This document shows positions 26,273 through 56,951 of a stretch of 58,306 bases of DNA, piece by piece. The stretch lies in assembly GCA_937931165.1 (NCBI GenBank), contig CALHCI010000052.1, positions 1 through 58,306 on the forward strand, in the 5' to 3' direction. The stretch's first letter is position 1; every line of letters starts with the position of its first letter. The stretch comes from an uncultured Granulosicoccaceae bacterium (lineage in GTDB: Bacteria; Pseudomonadota; Gammaproteobacteria; Granulosicoccales; Granulosicoccaceae). The translations under genes were made by a program, and so were the position numbers. Under the pieces are notes generated by a model. It was not told the DNA's origin. It did no database searches and worked only from the letters and a program-made list of their open reading frames with translations.

Positions 26273-26303
26273 CATAAAAAAACCCGGACATTTCTCCGGG
26301 TTT
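26273..26303 (-). terminator. Terminator of the ABC-TAXI-kinase operon
   Basis: AAACCCGGA at 26280-26288 and TCCGGGTTT at 26295-26303 form a 9-bp stem. On the minus strand the hairpin is followed by seven T, so it should end the long minus-strand operon downstream of the response regulator. On the plus strand the T-run is only three bases, but it may also slow the DUF3127 transcript. Confidence 0.88.
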
Positions 26304-26378: not shown

Positions 26379-27008
26379 TCAGGGCTGATAAATCCCGCAG
26401 ATTTTTGCCATCTGCACCAGCTCTGCCAGTGATCGGGCCTGCATTTTCGCCATCACCCGCGCACGATGATCATCCACAGTCCGGTGACTGATCTCGAGTT
26501 CTCTGGCAATTACCTTATTTGAAGTATCTGCGGCACCGGCGACCAGGCGAGTCATCACGTCTTTTTCACGCGGCGTCAGTTGCTCAAAACATTCATTGAT
26601 GTGGGCGGACTGCAACGCTGATTCGTGTAACTCCGTCGCCGCTCCGAGCGCACTGTCGATCCGTTCAACCAGCATTTCTACAGGATAGGGTTTTTCCAGA
26701 AAATCAACCGCACCTGATTTCATCGCCCGCACAGACATTGGGATATCGCCATGACCGGTGATAAAAATAATCGGCAGGGGAATATTTTTTTCGGCCAAAA
26801 TTTCCTGCAACTCCAGCCCGTTAATACCAGGCATTCGAACATCCAGCACCAGACATCCCGGTGCGGCGTGCTGATAGGAGCCGAGAAAATCCTCAGCACT
26901 GGCATAGGTTCTGACACTGTAGCCACGCTGCTCAAGCGAGCGCGTCAGTGCTTTGCGTACGGCTTCATCGTCATCGACAATGTAAACAGCCTTTTCATCC
27001 AATTCCAT
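26379..27008 (-). CDS. FixJ-type response regulator
   Basis: Two-component DNA-binding regulator of 209 residues. Receiver domain at about 1-125 with acidic pocket VDDDE, phosphorylation site D56 (CLVLDVRMPG), T84 and K106 (FLEKPY). LuxR-type HTH at about 140-205 (LTPREKDVMTRLVAGAADTSNKVIARELEISHRTVDDHRARVMAKMQARSLAELVQMA). The overall pattern is that of FixJ/TtrR. It is the last gene of the operon, 14 bases after the histidine kinase, which is its evident partner. Its targets are unknown; the operon promoter is a candidate. Confidence 0.93.
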   Translation of the reverse strand: MELDEKAVYIVDDDEAVRKALTRSLEQRGYSVRTYASAEDFLGSYQHAAPGCLVLDVRMPGINGLELQEILAEKNIPLPIIFITGHGDIPMSVRAMKSGAVDFLEKPYPVEMLVERIDSALGAATELHESALQSAHINECFEQLTPREKDVMTRLVAGAADTSNKVIARELEISHRTVDDHRARVMAKMQARSLAELVQMAKICGIYQP

Positions 27009-27022
27009 TCTTGTAGCTCTAT

Positions 27023-29215
27023 CTAATTGGCATTAATTGGTAAGCTGAACATGAATGTTGTCATACCTGCGGAAGCATTATCCAGCCACAAACGACCTCC
27101 GTGCGCTTCCACAATTGACCGGCTGATTGACAACCCCATCCCCATTCCATCAGTCTTGGTGGTCTTAAACGACTTAAACAGGTTACGTTCGACTTCCGGC
27201 GTAACGCCAGGCCCTGTATCCCTGACAGCGATATAAATCCAGTCGCCCGCTTCCCGCGCTGTCGTTATTGTTAGCTCCCGAAGCGAAGATTCGTGGTAAC
27301 GAATAGCCTCCACGCCATTTCTCTCCAGGTTAACAAGAACCTGCTGAATCTGTACCGCGTCAATCATTACCGCAGGCAAGTCAGGTGCTAATTCCAGCCT
27401 GACTTCAACATTGTGTTCTCGCGCCTCAGGCTTGGTTAGCCGATTCGTTTCCCTGACCAGATTGTTGATGTCGACACTGGCTGTTCGCGGCGTATCTTTA
27501 CGCATCATCTGGCGCATGCTATGGATTATGCCACCTGCACGCTGCGATTGCTCGTAGATATCCTGCAACGTCTCTTCTACGTCACTGTCGGACTGGCCGC
27601 TCAGATTGGATAACAGCGAATCGCAGTTGTGGCTAATGGCCGTCAAAGGCTGGTTGATTTCGTGTGCCAGCACACTCGCCATCTCACCAGCTGTATTCAA
27701 TCGGGCAACATGCGCCAGATCGGCTCGGAGTTTGCGGTCACGGTCTTCCAGTTTGCGCTTAGATGTGATGTCTTCATAAACCAGCACCGCATATCGCTGG
27801 GCATTAGAATAAAAAATGGTCAGGTTGATTTCCATCCAGCAGATCTCATCGGGCGTCTGACACGGGAATTCATAGTGAAAGCTGTCATTTTCGCCGTCGA
27901 GCACTGCCTGGATATAACGCTCAACAGAAGCAATGGCCCTGCGTTCTTCTGCCGGACGCGCCCTGAAAGCGGTCATGAAATTGTGCCCTACACCACCGCC
28001 CGCCACGCCATGCACAGACAACTCCCGCCACGCTTTGTTGGCGGCTTTAATCGTTGCATGTTGATCCAGAATGGCAATGTTGGGCGCCATTGCATCAAGG
28101 GAAGTACGCAGAAACTGTTCTGAGTCTCGCAACGCGTCTTCCGCCTGCTCTCGCCCCTGCCTTTGCGCCGCCAGCAACTCCCGGTAAACGGACTTAAGTT
28201 CCTCTTCAATGTTCTTGCGTTCGGTGATGTCCCGCCCGATCCCTCTAAAGCCGAGAAATTCCTGCTGCTCACCAAACAACGGTTTACCACTCATGGCAAT
28301 CACACGCCGCTGGCCATCATGCGTTTCCCATTCGGACTCGTACTCCGTGAATTCTCTTTGGTCGAGCAGGTTTTCAACCGGCCAGTGAACGCTGGTAGCA
28401 CGCTCGTCACTGGCCAGCAGCACAGACATTTCATCCGCGGGAGCTAACGCCTGCTTGTTATCGTTTACGGTTAGATCCCGGTTTGAAAGTACGTTGAGCT
28501 TAAGGTTGCGAGTCATCTCCCAGAACCAGTCGGCACCGATATCTGCAAAGTCGGCAATACGCTGTGCGTGCGCCTGCTGATCCATACGCAACTGGGTTTG
28601 CAAATTTCGCTGACGGATAAGCAATGCTGCAAACCCTAACGCAAGCAGCGCATAAAACCCCAGTAACGAAATTAGCGAGCCTCGAAACCGGTTAAGATTA
28701 TCTGATTGATCGGCAATGAGTTCCGTTGCGACCTGATCGGTTTCAGCGCCAATCCGTCGCAGTGTCGGGTACCGGTCATTCAGACGTTGTGCTGCCAGAG
28801 AAAGCCGCACCGGCATCTCCACTTGCTGGCCGGCAACGCCTTCCTCGATCCATTGAGTAACATCTTCCATCACCGGTTTGACGTAAGCGTGCGCAGTGGC
28901 CGCACCATCCAGCCGTTCAAAAGAGTATTGAAAGCGCATTTTATCCAGCTGTTGCCGCGCGGAATTCAGCGCAAGCCGCAAATTATCCTCACTGTCAGCC
29001 GTGCCGTTGCGCTCACGTTCGATGGCTAACACAACACCTTCGTACTCATGCATCAGGTTTGAGACATCGTGTTGTTGCTGCAAAACTTCTTCAGCAAGTG
29101 CTTCACGGATCTGGGTTGTAGCACGATTAACAAACAGTACCAGCGCCACACCCATAGCAAGCACCATCAAAAAAATGACAATGGTCCACCACTTTTGATT
29201 GCCGGCCCCGGTCAT
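27023..29215 (-). CDS. PAS-domain sensor histidine kinase
   Basis: Membrane kinase of 730 residues. Membrane helix at 9-29, an all-helical periplasmic domain at about 31-178, second helix at about 180-200, PAS domain at about 218-332 (ending FLGFRGIGRDITERK), a second PAS at about 365-485, then a FixL-like DHp domain with phospho-acceptor H518 (EMASVLAHEINQPLTAISH). The ATPase domain shows an N-box (VLVNLERNGVEAI), G1 (DTGPGV) and G2 (GMGMGLSISRSIVEAHGG). In the N-box the usual NA pair is NG. The start overlaps the TAXI gene stop as ATGA, so the two are translationally coupled and probably act together. Confidence 0.93.
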   Translation of the reverse strand: MTGAGNQKWWTIVIFLMVLAMGVALVLFVNRATTQIREALAEEVLQQQHDVSNLMHEYEGVVLAIERERNGTADSEDNLRLALNSARQQLDKMRFQYSFERLDGAATAHAYVKPVMEDVTQWIEEGVAGQQVEMPVRLSLAAQRLNDRYPTLRRIGAETDQVATELIADQSDNLNRFRGSLISLLGFYALLALGFAALLIRQRNLQTQLRMDQQAHAQRIADFADIGADWFWEMTRNLKLNVLSNRDLTVNDNKQALAPADEMSVLLASDERATSVHWPVENLLDQREFTEYESEWETHDGQRRVIAMSGKPLFGEQQEFLGFRGIGRDITERKNIEEELKSVYRELLAAQRQGREQAEDALRDSEQFLRTSLDAMAPNIAILDQHATIKAANKAWRELSVHGVAGGGVGHNFMTAFRARPAEERRAIASVERYIQAVLDGENDSFHYEFPCQTPDEICWMEINLTIFYSNAQRYAVLVYEDITSKRKLEDRDRKLRADLAHVARLNTAGEMASVLAHEINQPLTAISHNCDSLLSNLSGQSDSDVEETLQDIYEQSQRAGGIIHSMRQMMRKDTPRTASVDINNLVRETNRLTKPEAREHNVEVRLELAPDLPAVMIDAVQIQQVLVNLERNGVEAIRYHESSLRELTITTAREAGDWIYIAVRDTGPGVTPEVERNLFKSFKTTKTDGMGMGLSISRSIVEAHGGRLWLDNASAGMTTFMFSLPINAN

Positions 29216-30231
29216 CTGCGGTTCTGCCTGTCCAGATACGGGTGTGAGCGCTCGGTGTAGTATCTTTCCGCTCCAGGGTGCAGCGGTACAGTCAGACCTG
29301 CCAGTGCTGACGCAAAAGCAACCTCATTGCCCTTGGGATGATTTTCGCTGAGCTGCTGCAAAGTCCTGTCATCCCAGAGTGTTTTTGTAATACGATAAAC
29401 CAGCTCACTGTCCAGATCGGCATCAACCACAAGTTGTGCCGGCACAGCAAGTGTCGTTACTGCATCAGCGTTGCCATAGGTGTTTCCGGGAATTTCATCA
29501 ATAGTAAGAAACGGAAAGTCTTTCAGTAACTGGCTTTCAAGTGAAATTTCAAGCGGCAGTAACTTACCCACACCCTCTTCAATCAATTCAGATACGCCAT
29601 TCACCGGGTATCCTGCCACCACAAAAAAAGCGTCCAGTGCGCCGCGGCGAAAGCGGTCTATCGCATCAATTGGCTTCAGATAAACCAGTTTGATTTCTTC
29701 TTCAGCCAACCCTTGCGATCGCAACACCTGCTGAACATTGAGCTGGGTGCCGGAACCGATTTCATCGGTCGATACCCGTTTACCAATAAGATCAGTAAGA
29801 CTTTCTACACCGCTGTCCGAACGAACAACAAAGTGCAGGCTTTCGAGGTAAAGCGTCGCCACTGTGCGCAGGTTTTCAATCGGGCCACTGCTTTCAAACT
29901 CCGCAGTGCCGGAATAAGCCCAGTGCACCACATCGGCCTGTGCCAGTGCGGATTCCAGCAGGCCGCCACCAATATCACGCACATTAGATGCAGACCCGTT
30001 AGAACGCTGTGCGAGCGCCAGCACCTCACAATGTTCAGAAATCTCCTGCGCGATTATTGATCCGATAGGAAAGTAGGAACCGCTGCTGCCACCAGTACCA
30101 ATCCGCAAGACAGACGGGTTTTGATCATCATTTGCAGCGACCGGCGTTATTGCCAGTAACGCGAGGGCTGACAAGATAAAGCATTTTATGCCGCGCCTGA
30201 TGGCGATTGCCACGCTGTCAACACACCTCAT
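29212..30231 (-). CDS. TAXI-family solute-binding protein, likely sensor partner
   Basis: Exported binding protein of 339 residues with a signal peptide at about 1-33 (CFILSALALLAITPVAAN). TAXI hallmarks are RIGTGGSSGSYFPIGSIIAQEI, RSNGSASNVRDIGGGLLESALAQADVVHWAYSG, TLYLESLHFVVRSDSGVESLTDLIGKRVSTDEIGSGTQLN and FFVVAGYPVNGVSEL. No TRAP membrane subunit is present here: its start overlaps the ABC ATPase stop (ATGA) and its stop overlaps the kinase start (ATGA). I infer that it binds a small organic acid or similar ligand and presents it to the helical periplasmic domain of the kinase. Feeding a distant TRAP permease is an alternative. Confidence 0.88.
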   Translation of the reverse strand: MRCVDSVAIAIRRGIKCFILSALALLAITPVAANDDQNPSVLRIGTGGSSGSYFPIGSIIAQEISEHCEVLALAQRSNGSASNVRDIGGGLLESALAQADVVHWAYSGTAEFESSGPIENLRTVATLYLESLHFVVRSDSGVESLTDLIGKRVSTDEIGSGTQLNVQQVLRSQGLAEEEIKLVYLKPIDAIDRFRRGALDAFFVVAGYPVNGVSELIEEGVGKLLPLEISLESQLLKDFPFLTIDEIPGNTYGNADAVTTLAVPAQLVVDADLDSELVYRITKTLWDDRTLQQLSENHPKGNEVAFASALAGLTVPLHPGAERYYTERSHPYLDRQNRR

Positions 30232-31823
30232 GGGTTATCTGCTCCGGGTAGAACCGGCACCGAATCAAGAAGATTATTAGTGTACGCATGTTGTGGGTTT
30301 GAAAACACATCTTCGGTATCTCCCTGTTCGACAATGCGACCATCTTTCATCACCAGCACCCGATCTGTCACAGACCTTACCACGGTCAGATCGTGCGAGA
30401 TAAACAGATACGACAGATCAAATTGTGCAGAGAGTGCTGCCAGTAAATCGAGTATCTGTGCGCGAATTGAAACGTCGAGTGCAGAGACAGGTTCGTCGAG
30501 CACAATTAATCCGGGCTTGATAATCAACGCTCTGGCAATCGCAATGCGCTGGCGCTGTCCGCCGGAAAATTCGTGGATGTACTTATCGGCATCGCTCGCT
30601 GCCAGCCCGACACTCTCAAGTACCTCTGTCACGGCCATGTCATAGTCTGCGCCGGCAGGTGGCGAGTCGAGTAAATAAAAGGGTTCCCCGACCAGTCGCT
30701 TCACCTTGTGTCGTGGGTTAAAAGAACCATAAGGATCCTGAAACACCACCTGCACCTGCCGCCGCAGAGATGCCGGCATTTGCATATCTGCAAGCACTTG
30801 CTCGCCGTTGATTGTGATACTGCCTTCCTGCAATTTTTCGAGCCCCAGAATCGCGCGCGCCAACGTGGATTTACCGCACCCGCTTTCACCAACAAGCCCG
30901 ACATTTTCACCGCGATGAATCACAAAACTGACTTGATCAACTGCACGAAAGCTGTCCGGCCGACTAAACAGCCCGGAACGCGGCAACCGGTAGTCACGAC
31001 TGACAGCGTTCACGTCAAGCAATACCTCAGGCAGCATGTGTTTCACACTACGCTCCGGCACATGACCAGACGCCTCATACAACGCTTTGGTATACGGATG
31101 CCTGAGCGCTTTAAATATTGTGCCGGTCTCACCACTGTCTACCACTGTGCCATGACGCAGTATCACCATATGGTCTGCAATATCAGCAACCACACCGAGG
31201 TCATGTGTGATTAACAGCAGTGCCATGTTGTGTTCTGAGGTCAGACGTTTAAGCAACGCAAGAATCTGCGCCTGTGTCGTTACATCAAGCGCTGTCGTTG
31301 GCTCGTCTGCAATCAGTAAGCGGGGACGCAACGCAATAGCCATCGCAATCACCACACGTTGTCGCTGCCCGCCGGAAAGCTCATGCGGATAACGCGACAG
31401 TGGAAATTCACTATTGGGCAGCTCTACATGCTCAAGAGTTTGTGCTGCGATTTCAAGCGCGGCTTTACGCCCGACCTGTTGATGAATGAAAACCGTTTCG
31501 GCAACCTGTTCACCGATCGTTTGCACCGGGTTCAGAGCCGTCATTGGTTCCTGAAACACCATGCCGATATCGTCACCGCGCAAACTACACATCTGTGCCT
31601 CGGTTTTATCCAATAACTCTTCACCATCAAACAAAATACTGCCGGTAGCTTTAGACCCCTTTGGCAGTAGTTGCATAACCGACAATGCACTCAGTGATTT
31701 ACCCGAACCACTTTCACCGATAATACCGAGGGTTTGACCGGCATCGACCTGAAAGTCGATATCGTGCAGTACAGGATTGTCATAGATCGACAACTGCAGG
31801 TTTTCTACCTTAAGCAAAGTCAT
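30228..31823 (-). CDS. Fused double ATPase of peptide-type ABC importer
   Basis: One 531-residue chain with two nucleotide-binding domains, equivalent to DppD and DppF (or GsiA/YejF). NBD1: Walker A GESGSGKS, signature LSGGQRQRVVIAMA, Walker B LLIADEPTTALDV. NBD2: Walker A GESGCGKST, signature FSGGQRQRIAIARA, Walker B LIVLDEPVSALDV. The oligopeptide-type C-terminal parts follow each domain (HPYTKALYEAS and HAYTNNLLDS). It starts within the end of the upstream permease gene (ATGA) and its end overlaps the TAXI gene start. It drives uptake through the two permeases just upstream. Confidence 0.94.
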   Translation of the reverse strand: MTLLKVENLQLSIYDNPVLHDIDFQVDAGQTLGIIGESGSGKSLSALSVMQLLPKGSKATGSILFDGEELLDKTEAQMCSLRGDDIGMVFQEPMTALNPVQTIGEQVAETVFIHQQVGRKAALEIAAQTLEHVELPNSEFPLSRYPHELSGGQRQRVVIAMAIALRPRLLIADEPTTALDVTTQAQILALLKRLTSEHNMALLLITHDLGVVADIADHMVILRHGTVVDSGETGTIFKALRHPYTKALYEASGHVPERSVKHMLPEVLLDVNAVSRDYRLPRSGLFSRPDSFRAVDQVSFVIHRGENVGLVGESGCGKSTLARAILGLEKLQEGSITINGEQVLADMQMPASLRRQVQVVFQDPYGSFNPRHKVKRLVGEPFYLLDSPPAGADYDMAVTEVLESVGLAASDADKYIHEFSGGQRQRIAIARALIIKPGLIVLDEPVSALDVSIRAQILDLLAALSAQFDLSYLFISHDLTVVRSVTDRVLVMKDGRIVEQGDTEDVFSNPQHAYTNNLLDSVPVLPGADNP

Positions 31824-32650
31824 CTTGACTCGCGCCGCAGTCGCGGATCAAACAAATCACGCAATCCGTCACCAAACAAATTCAGACCGAGAACGGTCAG
31901 CAGGATGGCAAACCCGGGAAACAATGCCAGGTGCGGTGCAAATGAAATCATTGTCTGACTTTCTGCGAGCATACGCCCCCAGCTGGGTACCGGAGGCTGA
32001 GCCCCAAGCCCGACATACGACAATCCGGCTTCCGCCAGTATCCCTAATGAAAACTGAATGGTGCCCTGCACGATCAGCAGGTTTAAGATGTTTGGCAGAA
32101 TATGTTCAAGTGAGATACGAAAGGATTTTTTACCCGCCGTTCTTGCTGCAAGAATATAGTCACGTGTCCATAAACTTAATGCGGCGCCTCGCGTCAGCCT
32201 CGCAAAAACCGGAATATTAAATATTCCAATCGCAATGATGGCATTTACCGCGCCGGGGCCAAACACGGCAGTGATCATGATAGCGATTAACAGCGCCGGA
32301 AAAGCAAACACCAGATCATTGGAACGCATGATCAACTCATCCAGCAAGCTGTGTCGCCACGCAGCCGCTGTTAACCCCAGGGGCACACCAATAAGCAACC
32401 CGATACCCACTGCAACAATCGCCACGGCTATTGATGTTCTGGCTCCCACCATAATCATCGAAAAAATATCGCGGCCAAAATGATCAGTGCCAAACCAGTA
32501 TTCTGCGTTTGGTTTTTTTAGCTTATTGGCAATATCGAGCTGTGTTACATCATAGGGCGTCCAGAAAAAAGACACGATAGCGGCAATCAGAAACACCAGC
32601 GCAAGCACCGAACCAATAACCAGGTTGCGACGAAAGATTCCCGACTCCAT
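31820..32650 (-). CDS. Peptide-type ABC importer permease (DppC-like)
   Basis: Inner-membrane permease of 276 residues with six helices; N-terminal OppC-type region (NLVIGSVLALVFLIAAIVSFFWTPYDVTQLDI, WFGTDHFGRDIFSMIMVGARTSI) and the EAA-like loop AARTAGKKSFRISLEHILPNILNLLIVQGTIQFSLGILAEAGLSYVGLGAQPPVPSWGRML. It lies 18 bases after the first permease and overlaps the ATPase start. It pairs with that permease to form the channel. Confidence 0.93.
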   Translation of the reverse strand: MESGIFRRNLVIGSVLALVFLIAAIVSFFWTPYDVTQLDIANKLKKPNAEYWFGTDHFGRDIFSMIMVGARTSIAVAIVAVGIGLLIGVPLGLTAAAWRHSLLDELIMRSNDLVFAFPALLIAIMITAVFGPGAVNAIIAIGIFNIPVFARLTRGAALSLWTRDYILAARTAGKKSFRISLEHILPNILNLLIVQGTIQFSLGILAEAGLSYVGLGAQPPVPSWGRMLAESQTMISFAPHLALFPGFAILLTVLGLNLFGDGLRDLFDPRLRRESR

Positions 32651-32668
32651 GTTTATTTGCAGTCCAAG

Positions 32669-33613
32669 TCAGCGTGCTCGAAGCCGCGGATCGACAACGG
32701 CATAGGCTACATCGACCAGAAACGTCACCAGCACTACCGCAAACACCAGCAACATCACCACGCTTTCTACCACAATCAGATCACGCTGTGAGATGGCCTG
32801 AAATATCAGACGCCCCAGACCCGGCAGAAAGAAAACGTTTTCAATAATGATGGCACCAGCCAGTAGAAACGAAAACTGCAAACCGATAATGGTCAGTACC
32901 GGAATAAGCGCATTTCTAAGCGCGTGGCGCCAGAGGGTTTGTCTGGTAGTGAGCCCTTTGGCACGGGCTGTCCGGATGAAGTCTTCACCGAGTGTGTCAA
33001 GCAATGATGAACGCATGACCCGCGCAAGTATTGAAGCCTGCGGTAAGGCAAGTGCAACAGCCGGTAGTGTTAACGCTTTTAAGCCGGCCAACAGCCCCTG
33101 ATCCCAACCGGGAAAGCCACCGGCTGAAAACCATCTGAGTTGTATTGAAAAAAACAACACCAGCAACATCGCAAACCAGAAGTTGGGTATTGCAACGCCA
33201 AGTTGTGTCGCCCCCATAATGCTGACATCAGCAACTGAACCACGCCTGGTCGCCGCAATAATACCTGCGGGAAAAGCGATCAATGTCGACAACAGCAACG
33301 CGTAGATAGCGAGTGGTCCTGATATACCGATGCGTTCGGTAATCATTTCACTGACAGGCGTGCGATACGTGTAAGAAGTGCCAAAGTCACCACTGAGCAT
33401 ACCGCTAACCCAGTTAACATAACGCGTCACCTTAGACGCGTTTAAACCGAGTTCATCACGCAAGGCCTGAACGGTATCGGGCGCTGCGTTGAGGCCGAGC
33501 ATGTAACTGGCAGGGTCTCCCGGCACCACCTCTATGGCAACAAAAATAACGACACTCGCTACCACGAGTGTCGCTATCAGAGACAGCAGGCGCTTGAGTA
33601 CGTAACGAATCAA
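32669..33613 (-). CDS. Peptide-type ABC importer permease (DppB-like)
   Basis: Inner-membrane permease of 314 residues with six helices. The start MIRYVLKRLLSLIATLVVASVVIFVAIEVVPGDPASYMLG is typical of DppB/OppB. The coupling loop reads DFIRTARAKGLTTRQTLWRHALRNALIPVLTIIGLQFSFLLAGAIIIENVFFLPGLGRLI, followed by VVDPRLRAR. It lies 44 bases downstream of the binding-protein gene, with a hairpin in that gap. Confidence 0.94.
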   Translation of the reverse strand: MIRYVLKRLLSLIATLVVASVVIFVAIEVVPGDPASYMLGLNAAPDTVQALRDELGLNASKVTRYVNWVSGMLSGDFGTSYTYRTPVSEMITERIGISGPLAIYALLLSTLIAFPAGIIAATRRGSVADVSIMGATQLGVAIPNFWFAMLLVLFFSIQLRWFSAGGFPGWDQGLLAGLKALTLPAVALALPQASILARVMRSSLLDTLGEDFIRTARAKGLTTRQTLWRHALRNALIPVLTIIGLQFSFLLAGAIIIENVFFLPGLGRLIFQAISQRDLIVVESVVMLLVFAVVLVTFLVDVAYAVVDPRLRAR

Positions 33614-33622
33614 ACGGGATTG

Positions 33623-33644
33623 CTGTTAATAGTCTGGTTAACAG
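33623..33644 (-). promoter_or_regulatory. Intercistronic hairpin after the ABC binding-protein gene
   Basis: CTGTTAA at 33623-33629 and TTAACAG at 33638-33644 form a 7-bp stem with an 8-base loop between the binding-protein stop and the first permease start. No T-run follows on the minus strand. Such hairpins often protect the 3' end of the binding-protein mRNA and raise its level over the membrane subunits. Confidence 0.5.
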
Positions 33645-33657
33645 ACAAACTGTGCTG

Positions 33658-35127
33658 TTACTTCCAGTAGACCGCGGTCAGGTCGTTTGCCTGCGTCGGT
33701 GAGTTTTCCCAGAGCCCGACAATATCTGCATTGGCAACGCCGGTTTTAGCGAGCTGAAACAGATAGCCATTCACATAATCATCACTGATGATCTGCTGCG
33801 CTTTCTGCAAAGACTCGGTACGGGCGTCAGGGTCAGTAATGCCTTCAAGGTCTGCAATTAACGATTGCAGTTCCGGGTTGTCATATTGAAAGTAGTAATC
33901 CGGCTTTGCATAAATACCAATGTCCATCGGCTCGGTGTGTGAAACGATGGTCAGACCAAAGTCTTTACCGCGGAACACCTGCTCAAGCCACTGCGCCCAC
34001 TCAAGGTTACTAATTTCAGTGGTAATACCCACTTCTCTCAGTTGAGCTGCGATGATCTCACCGCCGCGTCTTGCATAAGACGGCGGTGGCAGTTTAAGCG
34101 TTGTACTGAAACCGTCGGCAAAGCCTGCTTCTTTCAGCAGCGCTTTTGCTTTTTCCGGGTCATACATCGAGTTTGCAGTCAGATCGACGTAAGCCGGATT
34201 ATGCGGCGCAAAGTGCGTTCCGATTGGTGTGCCATAGCCGAACATGGCGCCGTCAATAATAGATTTGCGATCAATCGCATGAGCCAGTGCCTGACGAACC
34301 AGCTTGTTGTCGAACGGCGGTTGTTTGTTGTTGGTGGATAAAATTGTCTCACCTTCGGTAGACCCTACCACCACCTGAAATCCCGGATCAGCTTCAAACT
34401 GTGGCAGATTTTCAGGCGCAGGAAAAACCGGAAACGCATCGACATCACCAGCCATTAGCGCTGCGAATGCCGCTGTTGGTTCAGAGATAAACTTAAATGT
34501 CGCCTTGTCGAGTTTGGCAGGTTCACCCCAGTAATCAGGATTGCGAGTGATTTCAATGCGATCACCCTGCACCCACTTTGAAAACACAAACGGACCGGTG
34601 CCAACAGGTTCTGTTTTCGCTTTGTCAAAGCTGTCCGGGGATAACATGATGGCATCACCCCATGCCAGATTAAACAGCAATGCACCGTTTGGCTGCGACA
34701 ACGTAATAACCACGGTTTGCGGGTCAGTGACTTCCACTGACGCTATGCCTGCAAAAAGCTGCTTCTGGGCATTGGTGGAAGTTTCGGCGCGCGCTCTGTC
34801 CAGAGAGAACTTAACGTCCTGTGCATCGAAATCGCTGCCGTCATGAAATTTCACACCAGCGTTCAGAGTGAAGGTATAAACCAGACCGTCGTCAGAAATT
34901 TCCCATGATTTTGCCAGTGCCGGTTGCACGCTGCCATCGGATGCAAACCGGGTGAGTCCTTCAAAAACGTTGGCATAGACCACTTCATCGATTGCAGCAG
35001 CAGCCCCGCCCGTCGGGTCCAGGTTAGGTGGCTCCAGTTGCATGCCAAGGACTAAATCGGTTTTTGCAGCGTGGGTGACAGATGCCGCAGCCAGCAGCAG
35101 GGGTACAATTAGTTTACGAAGGCTCAT
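33658..35127 (-). CDS. Peptide/nickel-type ABC binding protein (SBP_bac_5)
   Basis: Periplasmic binding protein of 489 residues. Signal peptide at about 1-20 (LIVPLLLAAASVTHA). Family blocks include LGMQLEPPNLDPTGGAAAAIDEVVYANVFEGLTR, LAKSWEISDDGLVYTFTLNAGVKFHDGSDFDAQDVKFSLDRA, VGTGPFVFSKWVQGDRIEITRNPDYWG, LVRQALAHAIDRKSII and DPEKAKALLKEAGF. Cluster 5 proteins bind peptides, opines, glutathione, nickel complexes or sugars, and the exact ligand is not evident. It is the first gene of the operon running down to 26379 and lies behind an inverted repeat in its promoter region. Confidence 0.93.
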   Translation of the reverse strand: MSLRKLIVPLLLAAASVTHAAKTDLVLGMQLEPPNLDPTGGAAAAIDEVVYANVFEGLTRFASDGSVQPALAKSWEISDDGLVYTFTLNAGVKFHDGSDFDAQDVKFSLDRARAETSTNAQKQLFAGIASVEVTDPQTVVITLSQPNGALLFNLAWGDAIMLSPDSFDKAKTEPVGTGPFVFSKWVQGDRIEITRNPDYWGEPAKLDKATFKFISEPTAAFAALMAGDVDAFPVFPAPENLPQFEADPGFQVVVGSTEGETILSTNNKQPPFDNKLVRQALAHAIDRKSIIDGAMFGYGTPIGTHFAPHNPAYVDLTANSMYDPEKAKALLKEAGFADGFSTTLKLPPPSYARRGGEIIAAQLREVGITTEISNLEWAQWLEQVFRGKDFGLTIVSHTEPMDIGIYAKPDYYFQYDNPELQSLIADLEGITDPDARTESLQKAQQIISDDYVNGYLFQLAKTGVANADIVGLWENSPTQANDLTAVYWK

Positions 35128-35176: not shown

Positions 35177-35238
35177 CGCCCGAGACTCACCCGCAGGTAT
35201 CAATCAATGTCAATTAACCGCTTGATACAGCGGCAGAA

Positions 35239-35949
35239 TCAGCGGCAAAAATCGACAAATTCGGTGACATCGGCGCGTTCCGTTTCGAGCGTGTTTTCCA
35301 CTGCAGAAAAATCTGCATATCCAATCGACATACCGCAGACGACAACTTCCTCATCCTGCAGCGGCAGCGCACTGCGAATCGCCCGATGGTATCCACAGAA
35401 CGCTGCCTGCGGACAAGTGTGCAGGCCGGCCTCACGCGCCAGCAACATGACATTTTGCAGAAACATGCCGTAGTCCAGCCAGCTGCCGGTATTGAGATCA
35501 CGATGGATCGTAAAAACCGCGCCGACGGGTGCGCTGAAAAACTCAAAATTGCGCCGGTGCTGCGCTTTCATTTTTTCTTTGTCACCCTTTTCAATGCCAA
35601 GCAACGTGTACAGATCCCACCCGACCTTGCGGCGGCGCGCCAGATAGGGTTCAAAAAACTTATCCGGATAATAGGGTTCTTCGGCATCGTAGGGTTCATC
35701 AGCATCATACGCTTTAAGCACGGCACCACTCACCGCGGCCAGTGAATCACCAGTTAGCACACGTACTCGCCATGGCTGCATGTTAGTACCACTCGGGGCG
35801 CGAGCTGCCTTGGTAAAAATGTCTTCAATGGTTTTATCGTCGACCGGCTGATCAGTAAAAGCGCGCAACGATCGGCGGGTAATCACTGCATCACTGACAT
35901 TCGTTGAAGCGTTGGTGAGGTCGGACTGGGTCAAGGTATTCTCCTTCAA
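35239..35949 (-). CDS. Nitroreductase-family flavoprotein
   Basis: FMN-dependent NAD(P)H oxidoreductase of 236 residues. ITRRSLRAFTDQPVDDKTIEDIFTKAARAPSGTNMQPWRVRVLTG is the classic FMN-phosphate-binding start, and SWLDYGMFLQNVMLLAREAGLHTCPQAAF plus VVCGMSIGYAD form the second flavin region. An acidic insertion DADEPYDAEEPYYPDKF at about residues 82-98 is noticeable. The true substrate is unknown: quinones, nitroaromatics or enones are all possible. It precedes the ABC operon on the same strand but is separated by a likely promoter. Confidence 0.9.
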   Translation of the reverse strand: MKENTLTQSDLTNASTNVSDAVITRRSLRAFTDQPVDDKTIEDIFTKAARAPSGTNMQPWRVRVLTGDSLAAVSGAVLKAYDADEPYDAEEPYYPDKFFEPYLARRRKVGWDLYTLLGIEKGDKEKMKAQHRRNFEFFSAPVGAVFTIHRDLNTGSWLDYGMFLQNVMLLAREAGLHTCPQAAFCGYHRAIRSALPLQDEEVVVCGMSIGYADFSAVENTLETERADVTEFVDFCR

Positions 35950-53352: not shown

Positions 53353-53964
53353 TCATGGTGTTTTCGTTACAAATCCACTGAAGGTATTCGTCAACTCTGC
53401 ATACAACGCTTTGACCCACAGTGGTTTTCCACACGTATCCAGATCTGTCCTGCGAGGGTCGTGTGGGGAGATCGCAACCGATATATTGGCCATGCCGGTA
53501 TCGGATGCTAAAACAAACAACTCTTCAATTGCACTGTCCCCAATCGCCAGACACCCCGCTGATTCTGCACCGCCATGAATGTATATATCGCTTCCGGGGT
53601 TGGATCGATGTTCTGAGCCTGCCCACTTCAAATCAAACGCATTGGGATAATCAATGCGCAGCGATAAATAAAACCGGCTTTCAGGGTTTAGTGCGGTAAT
53701 CGCATAGATCCCCTCAGGCACCTGCCCGTCACCTTCCGTAAGCTTTGGCCCTGCAACACCGCTTGCGGCCAGGATCGGGAAGTCCTTTACAAACACAGGG
53801 GAAACGTTATCCCCCACCCATAACTCTATGACGCGCTCGCTTTTCAACGCAAGCAACCACACGGCTTGCGGTGGATAACAACCGCCTTTGGCAGTCAACA
53901 GTGCGCTGAGCCTTTCGCGCACGGGCGCCAGTCGCTTTAGTACAGCCATACGGCTTTCAGACAT
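53353..53964 (-). CDS. YkuD-type L,D-transpeptidase-like protein without signal peptide
   Basis: Protein of 203 residues with the L,D-transpeptidase catalytic motif H130-GGAESAGC138 followed by LAIGDSAIEELF, as in the YafK-like branch. GQVPEGIYAITALNPESRFYLSLRIDYPNAFD is the usual preceding block. Such enzymes cross-link peptidoglycan or attach proteins to it, outside the membrane, but this N-terminus (MSESRMAVLKRLAPVRERLSALLTAKGG) is charged and has no signal peptide or membrane helix. The start overlaps the sulfatase stop by one base (TAATG), implying coupled translation. Confidence 0.82.
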   Translation of the reverse strand: MSESRMAVLKRLAPVRERLSALLTAKGGCYPPQAVWLLALKSERVIELWVGDNVSPVFVKDFPILAASGVAGPKLTEGDGQVPEGIYAITALNPESRFYLSLRIDYPNAFDLKWAGSEHRSNPGSDIYIHGGAESAGCLAIGDSAIEELFVLASDTGMANISVAISPHDPRRTDLDTCGKPLWVKALYAELTNTFSGFVTKTP

Positions 53965-55481
53965 TATTCCCCGCGCGGAAAGCGTTGGTTTTCTTCGAGT
54001 GTATTGAGATCCATATGATTACGCATGTACCGCTCAGAAGCTTTTTGCAGCGGCTGATAATCCCATGGATAGTATTCTCCACTGCGCAGCGCTTCGTATA
54101 CAACCCATCGACGCGCCTGCGACTCCCGCACCTGAGCATCAAACGCCTGCAGGTCCCATTGTTGATCCGCCTGGTGTCGAAACCCTTCAAGCACTGACTG
54201 ATAATTCACATCATCTGCAAGATTAGTTTTCTCCTGCGGGTCAGTCTCGAGATTAAACAACTGATCAGGATCGAGCAGGCAGCGGTTATATTTCCATTCA
54301 CCTGATCGCAAACACACCAGCGGTGCATAAGAACCTTCTGCGGCATATTCCATGGCGACCGGACTTTCGCGTTTACCACCAGCGCCAAGCGGCACCAGAC
54401 TTTCACCGGTGGTCCATGGCTTGACTTCATCCATAGACACGCCGGCAATATCAGCAAGCGTTGGGGTTACATCAATGGTAGACACCGGTGTTGTCACCAA
54501 CCCGGGTAGCATACCGGGCGCACTGATCATCAGCGGCACTCGTGCAGAGCCTTCATAAAAACTCATTTTAAACCACAGGCCTTTTTCACCCAGCATATCG
54601 CCATGATCAGAGACAAACAGAATAACGGTGTTATCTGCCTGGCGTGTATCTTCAAGCACTTTAAGTATCTGACCGAATTTTTCATCGAGGTAGGAAATGT
54701 TGGCAAAGTAAGCCTGCCTTGAACGACGAATATTTTCCTCGGTAATGTTAAAAGCGGTGTAGTCGTTAGCCAGCATGATGCGTTGCGAGTGCGCGTCGTA
54801 GTCGTCAAACGCATAAGCCGCTTCAGTTGGTTGCAACGCATCGCAGTTTTCATACAACTCCATATATTGACGTCGCGCAACATACGGATCATGAGGGTGC
54901 GTAAAACTCACCGTTAATGACCACGGTCGTTCGTCCAGACCACGTGACAACTGATAGAGTTTTTGCACAGCAAAATTCGCCACCTCATCGTCATACTCCA
55001 TCTGGTTCGAGATCTCTGCTGTGCCGGCACCGGTCACGGACCCCAGATTGTGGTACCACCATTGAATCCGCTCTCCGGGTTTGCGGTAGTCAGGCGTCCA
55101 ACCGAAGTCTGCCGGGTAGATATCGGTGGTCAGCCGATCTTCAAATCCGTGCATCTGATCAGGGCCGACAAAGTGCATTTTTCCAGAAAGACAGGTGTAG
55201 TAACCAGCGCGCCTCAAGTGATGTGCGTAGGTGGGAATATCGGAAGAGAACTCTGCCGCGTTGTCGTAGACCCGCGTTCTGGAAGGTAGCTGGCCGGACA
55301 TAAAACTGGCACGCCCCGGTGCACACAAAGGTGACGCCGTGTACGTGTTCTGAAATCGGGTCGACCGTTCCGCCAGTGCTTTCAGATTTGGCGCGTGCAG
55401 CCAGTCAGCCGGGCCATCCGGAAAAAACGTACCGTTTAGCTGATCTACCATCAAAATCAGAATATTGGGTTTGGCGCTCAT
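53964..55481 (-). CDS. betC: Choline-sulfatase-like sulfatase
   Basis: Type I sulfatase of 505 residues. The formylglycine motif is C53-A-P-G-R57 in TASPLCAPGRASFMSGQLPSRTRVYDNAAEFSSDIPTYAHHL, very like choline-sulfatase. The metal-binding start NILILMVDQLNGTFFPD and FVSDHGDMLGEKGLWFKMSFYEGSARVPLMIS are typical. The C-terminal region (VVYEALRSGEYYPWDYQPLQKASERYMRNHMDLNTLE) matches the extension of BetC. It would release choline and sulfate from choline-O-sulfate. No signal peptide is seen, so it is cytoplasmic. No betA/betB genes are adjacent, so the substrate is inferred. Confidence 0.87.
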   Translation of the reverse strand: MSAKPNILILMVDQLNGTFFPDGPADWLHAPNLKALAERSTRFQNTYTASPLCAPGRASFMSGQLPSRTRVYDNAAEFSSDIPTYAHHLRRAGYYTCLSGKMHFVGPDQMHGFEDRLTTDIYPADFGWTPDYRKPGERIQWWYHNLGSVTGAGTAEISNQMEYDDEVANFAVQKLYQLSRGLDERPWSLTVSFTHPHDPYVARRQYMELYENCDALQPTEAAYAFDDYDAHSQRIMLANDYTAFNITEENIRRSRQAYFANISYLDEKFGQILKVLEDTRQADNTVILFVSDHGDMLGEKGLWFKMSFYEGSARVPLMISAPGMLPGLVTTPVSTIDVTPTLADIAGVSMDEVKPWTTGESLVPLGAGGKRESPVAMEYAAEGSYAPLVCLRSGEWKYNRCLLDPDQLFNLETDPQEKTNLADDVNYQSVLEGFRHQADQQWDLQAFDAQVRESQARRWVVYEALRSGEYYPWDYQPLQKASERYMRNHMDLNTLEENQRFPRGE

Positions 55482-55739: not shown

Positions 55740-56789
55740 ATGAAACCATTGAAAAAACTACTGACACTGGCAATTGCAGGGACACTGACCTGTGCTGTCA
55801 ATGCCGCAGAAAACCTCACCGCAGAGACTGCTTCCCCGGGTGGATCTATTCACCTGTCAATGGCACATCTGGCCGAAGCTGCCTCTGAAGCAGGCATCGC
55901 CAACATTCAGGTCGCCGATGGGCAAACCCTGACCAATTCTATTCAGAACGTTGCCGAAGGCAAGACCGATATTGCCGGCACACCATACATTCTGCCGTTT
56001 CTGTTATCCAAGGGCCGCGGTCCTTACTCGAAGCTGGGCGAGGAAAAAGGCGCAGAACTGGCTGGGAATCTTCGCGCGCTGTACCCGGTTACGCTGGGCA
56101 TCTTTGCGATGTATGCCTATGACTCAAAAGGCCTTGGCGGCTGGGACGATCTCGAAGGCAGAACCATCTACAACGGCCCGCCACGCGGCGCTGCATTAAC
56201 CAATGCACGATCAATTATTCAGCTTGCTACCGGCCTTAAAGAGGGTGAAGGCTACAAGGGCGTGCAGGTCAATTGGGGACAAGCGGTTAAAACCATCACT
56301 GACGGTTCCGCCGATGCGGTTGTGCTGCCTATTCTGTTTCCGGACAGTCGCATCACACAGGCCCTTGCCTCAGGCAACATGACTGTCTGGTCAACGCCAA
56401 AAGACAAATGGGAGTCAGAAGGGTTTCAAAAATACCTGAAGGCACCAGGCAGCGCACCGTTCACGCTGGACGCTTCAAAAGCGACACTTGGTGAAAGCGG
56501 CGTGACACTGGTCACTGAAGACGGCACCTTCCGTGGTTTAGCAACCATCGGCGGAGACATCGTCAACAAGGACATGCCTTTTGAACTCGCCAAGGCACTC
56601 ACCAAAGCACACATAGACACCCTCGATCAACTCAAGGCCAAGGCACCTTTCGCCCGTTATGCAGGTTACGGTGAAGTCGATGTGGTTCGTTCCGGCATGT
56701 GTGGTGCCAACCCGCTTAAGTATCACGCCGGTGCGGTCGCCGCGTGGGAAGAAGCAGGCTACACCATTGAAGACTGTGCCAAGCCCTGA
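55740..56789 (+). CDS. TAXI-family TRAP solute-binding protein
   Basis: Periplasmic binding protein of 349 residues with signal peptide at 1-22 (LTLAIAGTLTCAVNAAE). TAXI features include TASPGGSIHLSMAHLAEAASEAGIANIQVADGQTLTNSIQNVAEGKTDIAGTPYILPFLLSKGRGPY, and GWDDLEGRTIYNGPPRGAALTNARSIIQLATGLKEGEGYKGV. A strong AGGAGGA ribosome site stands before the ATG. The permease gene follows after a terminator-like hairpin, so this is a complete TAXI-TRAP importer. The substrate is unknown; members take up glutamate, 2-oxo acids and other organic acids. It is divergent from the sulfatase gene. Confidence 0.91.
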   Translation: MKPLKKLLTLAIAGTLTCAVNAAENLTAETASPGGSIHLSMAHLAEAASEAGIANIQVADGQTLTNSIQNVAEGKTDIAGTPYILPFLLSKGRGPYSKLGEEKGAELAGNLRALYPVTLGIFAMYAYDSKGLGGWDDLEGRTIYNGPPRGAALTNARSIIQLATGLKEGEGYKGVQVNWGQAVKTITDGSADAVVLPILFPDSRITQALASGNMTVWSTPKDKWESEGFQKYLKAPGSAPFTLDASKATLGESGVTLVTEDGTFRGLATIGGDIVNKDMPFELAKALTKAHIDTLDQLKAKAPFARYAGYGEVDVVRSGMCGANPLKYHAGAVAAWEEAGYTIEDCAKP

Positions 56790-56894: not shown

Positions 56895-56951
56895 GCCAGT
56901 TTCTGATTAGGCGGTCTATTGTTTAGCACTCTGATCACTGACGGACGAACC

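Follow-up and report, generated by a model that had tools for sequence, protein, structure and literature searches.

We analyzed a 58,306-nucleotide stretch of DNA from an uncultured Granulosicoccaceae bacterium (GenBank assembly GCA_937931165.1, contig CALHCI010000052.1, positions 1 to 58,306; hereafter the window), in which seven genes encode a peptide-type ATP-binding cassette (ABC) importer with its own solute-binding protein (SBP), a binding protein of the TAXI family, a histidine kinase and a FixJ-type response regulator. The genes for the TAXI protein (29212..30231, minus strand), the kinase (27023..29215, minus strand) and the regulator (26379..27008, minus strand) form a fixed three-gene unit in the window and its relatives (18 of 18 loci), while the transporter beside them varies: this ABC importer, a tripartite ATP-independent periplasmic (TRAP) permease, or neither. 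We consider it probable that the TAXI protein is the ligand-sensing subunit of the adjacent kinase and that the trio adjusts expression of the ABC importer encoded upstream. The best-supported unit is the TAXI-kinase-regulator core and not the whole operon, and the pairing of TAXI protein and kinase is well supported by the comparative evidence.

The TAXI-kinase-regulator core and its neighbors

The kinase sensor alone (residues 1-231) served as query, so that linkage to a TAXI gene was not built into the search. Among 57 relatives it gave 19 matches, of which 14 were strong (E-values of 8.6e-52 or lower), and all 14 directly adjoined genes for a TAXI protein and a FixJ-type regulator. A scan of named contigs for the sensor, in which two peptide patterns only were used, revealed 17 loci, each with the TAXI gene directly 5′ and the FixJ-type regulator gene directly 3′ of the kinase gene (17/17); 13 of them lie in genomes already included in the search of the 57 relatives. 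A sequence-only reading of the window had proposed that the TAXI protein reports to the helical sensor of the kinase, and the two are paired at all 18 loci, the window included. The synteny of TAXI, kinase and FixJ-type regulator genes is likewise conserved at 18/18, but ABC genes adjoin them at 9/18. Kinases with a different partner and TAXI genes always beside TRAP permeases were looked for and not found.

Of the 17 named relatives with the core, 16 carry the label Granulosicoccaceae and one the label Chromatiales, which very probably places the window in the former family; the window's own genome (G000) has a completeness of 94.89%. A class-wide search of 369 genomes with sensor alignment A1 gave two matches, one in the window's own genome and one, weak and to a GGDEF-EAL protein, in another; together with the contig scan this suggests a sensor restricted to a single family. 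Of 89 sensor kinases in public protein clusters, 26 had a longest contig equal in size to that of one of 120 listed TAXI clusters, compared to 0.28 matches expected from offsets; five of these belong to loci counted above. The kinase as query against plasmids yielded partial matches only, with less than 60% identity, none of which covered 80% of the kinase, and the correlation of tree distances gave no information beyond shared descent.

Beside the core, the ABC importer was found at nine of the 18 loci, a second TAXI gene at four (with a TRAP permease gene seen at three) and neither transporter at five. The ABC genes are located upstream of the core in the window and in L068, L070, L071, L072, L073, L077, L080 and L081, always co-directional and with at most 69 bp between the ATPase and TAXI genes. 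Because of this co-direction and tight spacing, a single transcript is suggested for all nine ABC loci. In L070 the contig ends inside the ATPase gene, and the rest of the operon ends likewise on another contig of that genome (L131). The second TAXI gene lies downstream of the core and is followed by a TRAP permease gene in L078, L083 and L084, and by the contig end in L082. As the TRAP permeases after the core (3/3) have their own second TAXI protein, 27-28% identical to the first, these permeases would not need the first TAXI protein. Neither transporter adjoins the core in L069, L074, L075, L076 and L079, which means that no BLAST homolog of this ABC importer or of two TRAP permeases was found there; L075 ends 565 bp after the regulator gene, and in L074 and L076 an ABC gene unrelated to this importer lies at about 5 kb distance. 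Judged by gene content, the sensing binding protein would be separate from the transport binding protein, the latter being an SBP_bac_5 protein in the ABC loci and the second TAXI protein in the TRAP loci.

In a tree of the TAXI, kinase and regulator sequences, the nine ABC loci and L069 formed one clade (support 99/97), for which the simplest account is a single gain of the ABC linkage and a single loss of the ABC genes. L069 belongs to genome G001 (about 80% complete) and has a nitroreductase gene directly before the TAXI gene. In two genomes of the same genus without the core (L127:13407-15845 and L129:13426-15747), the slot after the ABC ATPase gene is occupied by a GGDEF-EAL gene with an unrelated N-terminus.

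TAXI proteins, kinase sensor and regulator

The TAXI protein of the operon exceeded the family cut-offs clearly (TIGR02122, 281.5 versus 84.35 bits; PF16868, 234.4 versus 27 bits) and has a signal-peptide-like N-terminus as judged by eye. The 18 TAXI proteins of the core, termed sensing TAXI proteins here after their proposed role, were separated from 17 other TAXI proteins by a branch with a support of 100/99.6. For this tree, 10 of 27 comparison rows were dropped (seven long-branch or remote, three partners of GGDEF proteins); with all 45 rows, the branch had an SH-aLRT support of 94. Fourteen of the 17 comparison proteins are encoded beside TRAP genes, two have no TRAP gene within 1.5 kb and one lies at a contig edge. 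By sequence, the sensing TAXI proteins thus form a clade that excludes the TAXI proteins used for comparison.

The key residues of the glutamate-type pocket of VcGluP are given in passages of PMC11574862 as Y45, S75, Q93, E125 and G156. Their equivalents Y53, S80, Q98, E130 and G161 are kept in 18/18 sensing TAXI proteins, and the same five residues agree in 119-120 of 120 listed TAXI homologs. At the other pocket positions (44, 46, 123, 157, 200, 201), residues other than those of VcGluP prevail. The seven nearest other TAXI proteins, six of them encoded beside TRAP genes, lack nine conserved positions that at least 17 of the 18 sensing proteins share. R76, D86, S131, Y184, D189, I191 and G220 are conserved in the sensing proteins and absent from those seven, and these seven sites hold in 94-113 of the 120 listed homologs. 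Two remote rows were dropped from the alignment used for pocket and sites.

As a control, we inspected the neighbors of other TAXI genes. The count excludes loci L068-L084, six loci that are duplicates, and the sensing TAXI genes of L031-L043 (13 genes). Two of its 57 rows are repeats (L100 and L115 represent a single place), which leaves 55 genes: 32 lay beside TRAP genes, five beside TRAP and kinase genes, four beside a GGDEF gene and 12 beside none of these, and two were undecided. In this sample of TAXI places, none of the 53 decided genes lay beside a kinase gene without TRAP genes, as judged with a kinase profile that was built from the kinases of this study and may miss remote ones. A separate run in the window's own genome (L029:6527-12341) comprises genes for a kinase with a weak dCache match, a regulator, a TAXI protein and a TRAP permease.

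The kinase consists of a predicted four-helix periplasmic sensor, one or more PAS regions (PAS_4), HisKA and HATPase_c, and the FixJ/TtrR-like regulator of a receiver (Response_reg) and a GerE helix-turn-helix domain. The H-box histidine (His518; column HEI or HEL) is present in 18/18 aligned kinases and the receiver aspartate (Asp56) in 18/18 aligned regulators. In these alignments, the ligand-pocket residues of the TAXI protein and the phosphosites of kinase and receiver are thus all kept. At the cut-off used for family assignment of kinase domains (E 0.001), no receiver domain fused to the kinase was detected, whereas TorS and LuxQ are hybrid kinases with a receiver. The NCBIfam equivalog cut-offs were not reached, either by the kinase for FixL (237 versus 850 bits) or by the regulator for FixJ (234 versus 255 bits).

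The sensor domain (residues 30-182; 28670..29128, minus strand) has four helices in each of two AlphaFold2 (AF2) models (mean confidence, pLDDT, 83.9 and 85.7), in one of them predicted at residues 3-69, 75-93, 104-124 and 134-229. The models, together with hydrophobic stretches recognized by eye, predict that it is periplasmic and placed between two membrane helices. The conserved loop of the kinase reads MRFQYSFERLDGA in the window. No Pfam family matched the sensor domain above cut-off (best E 0.013), and its profile gave three chance-level matches to PDB sequences (best E 0.018). Fold searches with the two models retrieved generic four-helix bundles only, below the threshold of the tool for helical models. 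The structural neighbors include LytSN (from the XylFII-LytSN complex), QseE, TorS, Tar, NarQ and Tsr, with scores at chance level for helical bundles. LytSN, QseE and TorS were considered as specific fold relatives, and none of them stood out.

A homologous sensor was detected on GGDEF-EAL proteins (HHalign probability 99.5%, E 1.5e-22). The five weak GGDEF-EAL matches of the search in 57 relatives had a TAXI-like gene directly 5′ in three cases (L049:7031-10812, L050:7236-10644 and L051:7257-10909), a contig edge in one and no such gene in one; most glutamate-pocket residues are lost in these TAXI-like partners. Longer TAXI-like proteins (about 440-460 amino acids) are encoded beside GGDEF-EAL genes in other genomes (L117:1395-4438 and L121:5068-9781), and the GGDEF-EAL protein of L121 bears an ammonium transporter domain. 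The GGDEF-EAL proteins encoded near ABC genes (L127, L129, L132, L133 and L137) were checked as carriers of the sensor and gave no match to it. A tentative idea, to which we give slightly less than an even chance, is a TAXI sensory lineage, in which a cassette of TAXI protein and four-helix sensor would have been joined to two outputs, the kinase with its FixJ-type regulator and GGDEF-EAL enzymes of cyclic di-GMP metabolism, and would have switched between ABC and TRAP operons, which would allow one detector to be rewired to different uptake systems.

The operon and control of the importer

The seven-gene run on the minus strand begins with the gene for the transport binding protein SBP_bac_5 (33658..35127; PF00496, E 4.5e-97), followed by those for permease B of the OppB/DppB type with a TTG start (32669..33613; PF00528 and PF19300), permease C of the OppC/DppC type (31820..32650; PF00528) and a fused two-domain, YejF/GsiA-like ATPase (30228..31823; two ABC_tran and oligo_HPY), and then the core. 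The open reading frame coordinates and family matches confirm this run, with exactly the ends given by the sequence-only reading, as well as its three ATGA overlaps between permease C and ATPase (31823-31820), ATPase and TAXI (30231-30228) and TAXI and kinase (29215-29212); the non-overlapping junctions measure 44, 18 and 14 bp. The terminator proposed after the regulator gene (26273..26303, minus strand) is also present, with a stem at 26303-26280 and a T-run. Since shuffled sequences yielded about as many terminator-like sites as the window (mean 12.4 versus 13), its support comes from its position and not from its match. Genes for a nitroreductase, an RDD protein and a short-chain dehydrogenase/reductase (SDR) continue on the minus strand 5′ of the SBP gene, and therefore the start of the operon is not fixed.

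The nitroreductase gene (35239-35949, minus strand) lies directly 5′ of the SBP gene and occupies the same place in several relatives, even in G001, which lacks the ABC genes. Within codons 12-23 of the permease B gene, a 15-pair hairpin followed by a T-run is located at 33578-33545 (minus strand). All 15 pairs are conserved in L068 with three two-sided compensatory changes, and the hairpin is shorter or absent in the six other relatives folded. It could damp transcription or translation past the SBP gene.

That the TAXI gene stands without a TRAP permease holds for the operon: no DctM or DctQM permease was among the families found there, nor any GltS symporter family among the ten genes scanned. 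It does not hold for the window, in which a TAXI-like gene (55740-56789, plus strand) is followed by a gene for a DctM-type TRAP permease that starts at 56919 and runs off the window (to 58304). A choline-sulfatase-like gene (53964-55481) is located near this pair.

According to passages of PMC9602780, most SBP_bac_5 proteins are peptide binders. Among 13 loci fetched, those of three relatives from outside the genus had genes near the importer with Pfam matches to aldehyde dehydrogenase (L133, L134, L137), S58 peptidase (L133, L134) and M20 peptidase (L134); none of the three was seen beside the importer in the window. Its family, and peptidase genes adjoining some of its orthologs, lead us to infer that the ABC importer with its own binding protein takes up peptide-like compounds.

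The following mechanism would account for the arrangement. The TAXI protein would be loaded with a ligand, probably a small glutamate-type amino or organic acid, and in this state dock on the helices that the kinase exposes to the periplasm and alter its activity. The regulator would then act at the promoter in front of the SBP gene, raising the expression of importer and sensor alike. The contact between TAXI protein and kinase, the ligand and the target are all inferred in this scheme. Because the trio is fixed while the transporter varies, the sensing TAXI proteins form their own clade with a kept pocket, and the TRAP permeases have their own second TAXI protein, the TAXI protein is most likely the sensing subunit of the kinase.

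Control of the ABC operon by the kinase, as claimed in the sequence-only reading, is plausible and in part supported by the co-directional, closely spaced arrangement at all nine ABC loci. Several observations weigh against it. SBP orthologs (E 1e-100 or better) occur in 29 of 36 family genomes searched, the SBP gene of G008, interrupted by the end of its contig, having been missed in this search; of the 22 family genomes that lack the core, 19 have the importer. Conversely, the core lies beside a second TAXI gene with TRAP, or beside neither transporter, at 9/18 loci, and in G001 the ABC genes have disappeared from the site while the core remains there (no SBP ortholog at E 1e-100). A k-mer search of promoters pointed to TGATACA, present in 5/7 regions upstream of SBP genes (three of 370 bp, the rest of 250 bp), 1/4 upstream of second TAXI genes and 0/9 upstream of TAXI genes; the maximum reached five in 5 of 200 shuffled sets, which makes the motif borderline. 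In the window, half-sites TGTATCA and TGATACC at 35196..35229 (minus strand), upstream of the SBP gene, are suggestive of a candidate operator of this promoter.

These observations could mean that the trio is a TAXI-sensing switch that acts mainly on other parts of the genome, with the ABC importer as a mere neighbor. The five loci with neither transporter, the retention of the core in G001 where relatives have ABC genes and the borderline operator motif are all in line with it. We nevertheless regard it as rather doubtful, since the distribution is explained most simply by one ancestral joining to the ABC operon, which was then kept tightly spaced at 9 of the 10 loci of the clade. A different and quite improbable explanation is that the four-helix domain of the kinase binds a small ligand itself and that the TAXI protein is a co-regulated transport subunit of an unlinked TRAP or other permease. 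It draws on the four-helix sensors Tar, Tsr and NarQ, which bind ligands directly and are among the structural neighbors, on 17 DctM permease matches in the window's genome, and on the ability of TAXI proteins to serve non-TRAP permeases such as GltS, described in passages of PMC12344293. The TAXI protein stays with the kinase at the five loci with neither transporter, however, belongs to a separate clade with its own conserved residues, and has TAXI-like counterparts beside the homologous GGDEF-EAL sensor (3/5). In addition, four TAXI-linked and three other large (more than 600 amino acids) DctM permeases of the genome each adjoin a binding-protein gene (four TAXI, three DctP). This check covered the TAXI-linked and large permeases; seven others are smaller, of unfused size. 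TAXI-TRAP systems are always found with fused permeases according to the review PMC5812351, as far as its passages go, and as the large permeases are all partnered, the window's genome has no obvious orphan permease of the size served by TAXI proteins. A stray TAXI-type TRAP permease as partner was therefore rejected, the three large permeases without a TAXI gene (on C35, C110 and C31) each having an adjoining DctP gene.

The TAXI protein might also be a second binding protein of the ABC importer for another substrate, with the kinase sensing something else. The ATGA overlap of its gene with the ATPase gene and the close spacing at the nine ABC loci would fit, but the trio lacks such an ABC neighbor at half of its loci, and 19 of the 22 family genomes without the core still have the importer. 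We dropped this explanation on the basis of G001 and the loci without ABC genes and consider it very improbable. A TAXI protein that senses for the kinase agrees best with the comparative data.

Relation to known systems

The sequence-only reading knew of no such layout in a described system. It is established, however, that a binding protein, a kinase and a regulator can form a three-component system, and passages of PMC10384115 describe Clostridium, Geobacillus and Cua systems in which one binding protein senses and another takes up; CuaD-CuaSR/CuaABC and the xylose system of Clostridium beijerinckii match the layout. CuaD-CuaSR with CuaABC of Ruminiclostridium cellulolyticum combines, as here, an extra sensing binding protein, kinase and regulator with an ABC importer that has its own binding protein; it has cellobiose as ligand, an AraC-type regulator and directly shown binding, whereas the contact proposed here is a prediction (passages of PMC10384115). 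XylFII-LytS of C. beijerinckii likewise devotes one binding protein to sensing, which sits on a helical sensor of the kinase, and a second one to uptake (as cited in PMC10384115; PDB title 5xsj). Its binding protein is a sugar-binding one instead of a TAXI protein, and LytSN is among the structural neighbors of our sensor with a score that is not decisive. XylFII-LytS comes from another bacterial phylum, and its kinase and regulator are of another family. By analogy, the logic proposed here is that of XylFII-LytS and CuaD-CuaSR.

A polyamine signal is handled by NspS-MbaA of Vibrio, a binding protein paired with a GGDEF-EAL receptor, without a TAXI protein. This pairing resembles the GGDEF-EAL relatives of our sensor; the system is named in a title cited by PMC11113362. 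In BctC-BctE of Bordetella, too, a kinase that controls uptake receives its signal from a binding protein, in that case one belonging to a family of secondary (non-ABC) transporters; BctC, of the TctC family, serves both transport and signaling, whereas the TAXI protein here appears dedicated (passages of PMC5812351 and PMC9602780). One survey counted 13 of 22 binding-protein families as acting on receptors (passage of PMC9602780). TAXI proteins were described in the sequence-only reading as normally serving TRAP permeases; they are not tied to these, as the published TAXI-GltS shows (PMC12344293). The TAXI proteins of VcGluP (PMC11574862) and TAXI-GltS share family and glutamate-type pocket residues with ours, but in the passages describing them they feed a permease, whereas the fixed partner here is a kinase.

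In titles and selected passages of the literature, no paper on a TAXI protein signaling to a kinase was found. The sensing TAXI protein, the unnamed four-helix sensor domain and the swapping of ABC and TRAP neighbors therefore appear provisionally new, so far as the literature was searched. If the proposal is true, a widespread and poorly understood binding-protein family would join bacterial sensing, and an unnamed sensor domain would gain a partner and a likely ligand class. The same detector with ABC, TRAP or neither transporter would then offer a natural series for studying how sensing and uptake are coupled and uncoupled.
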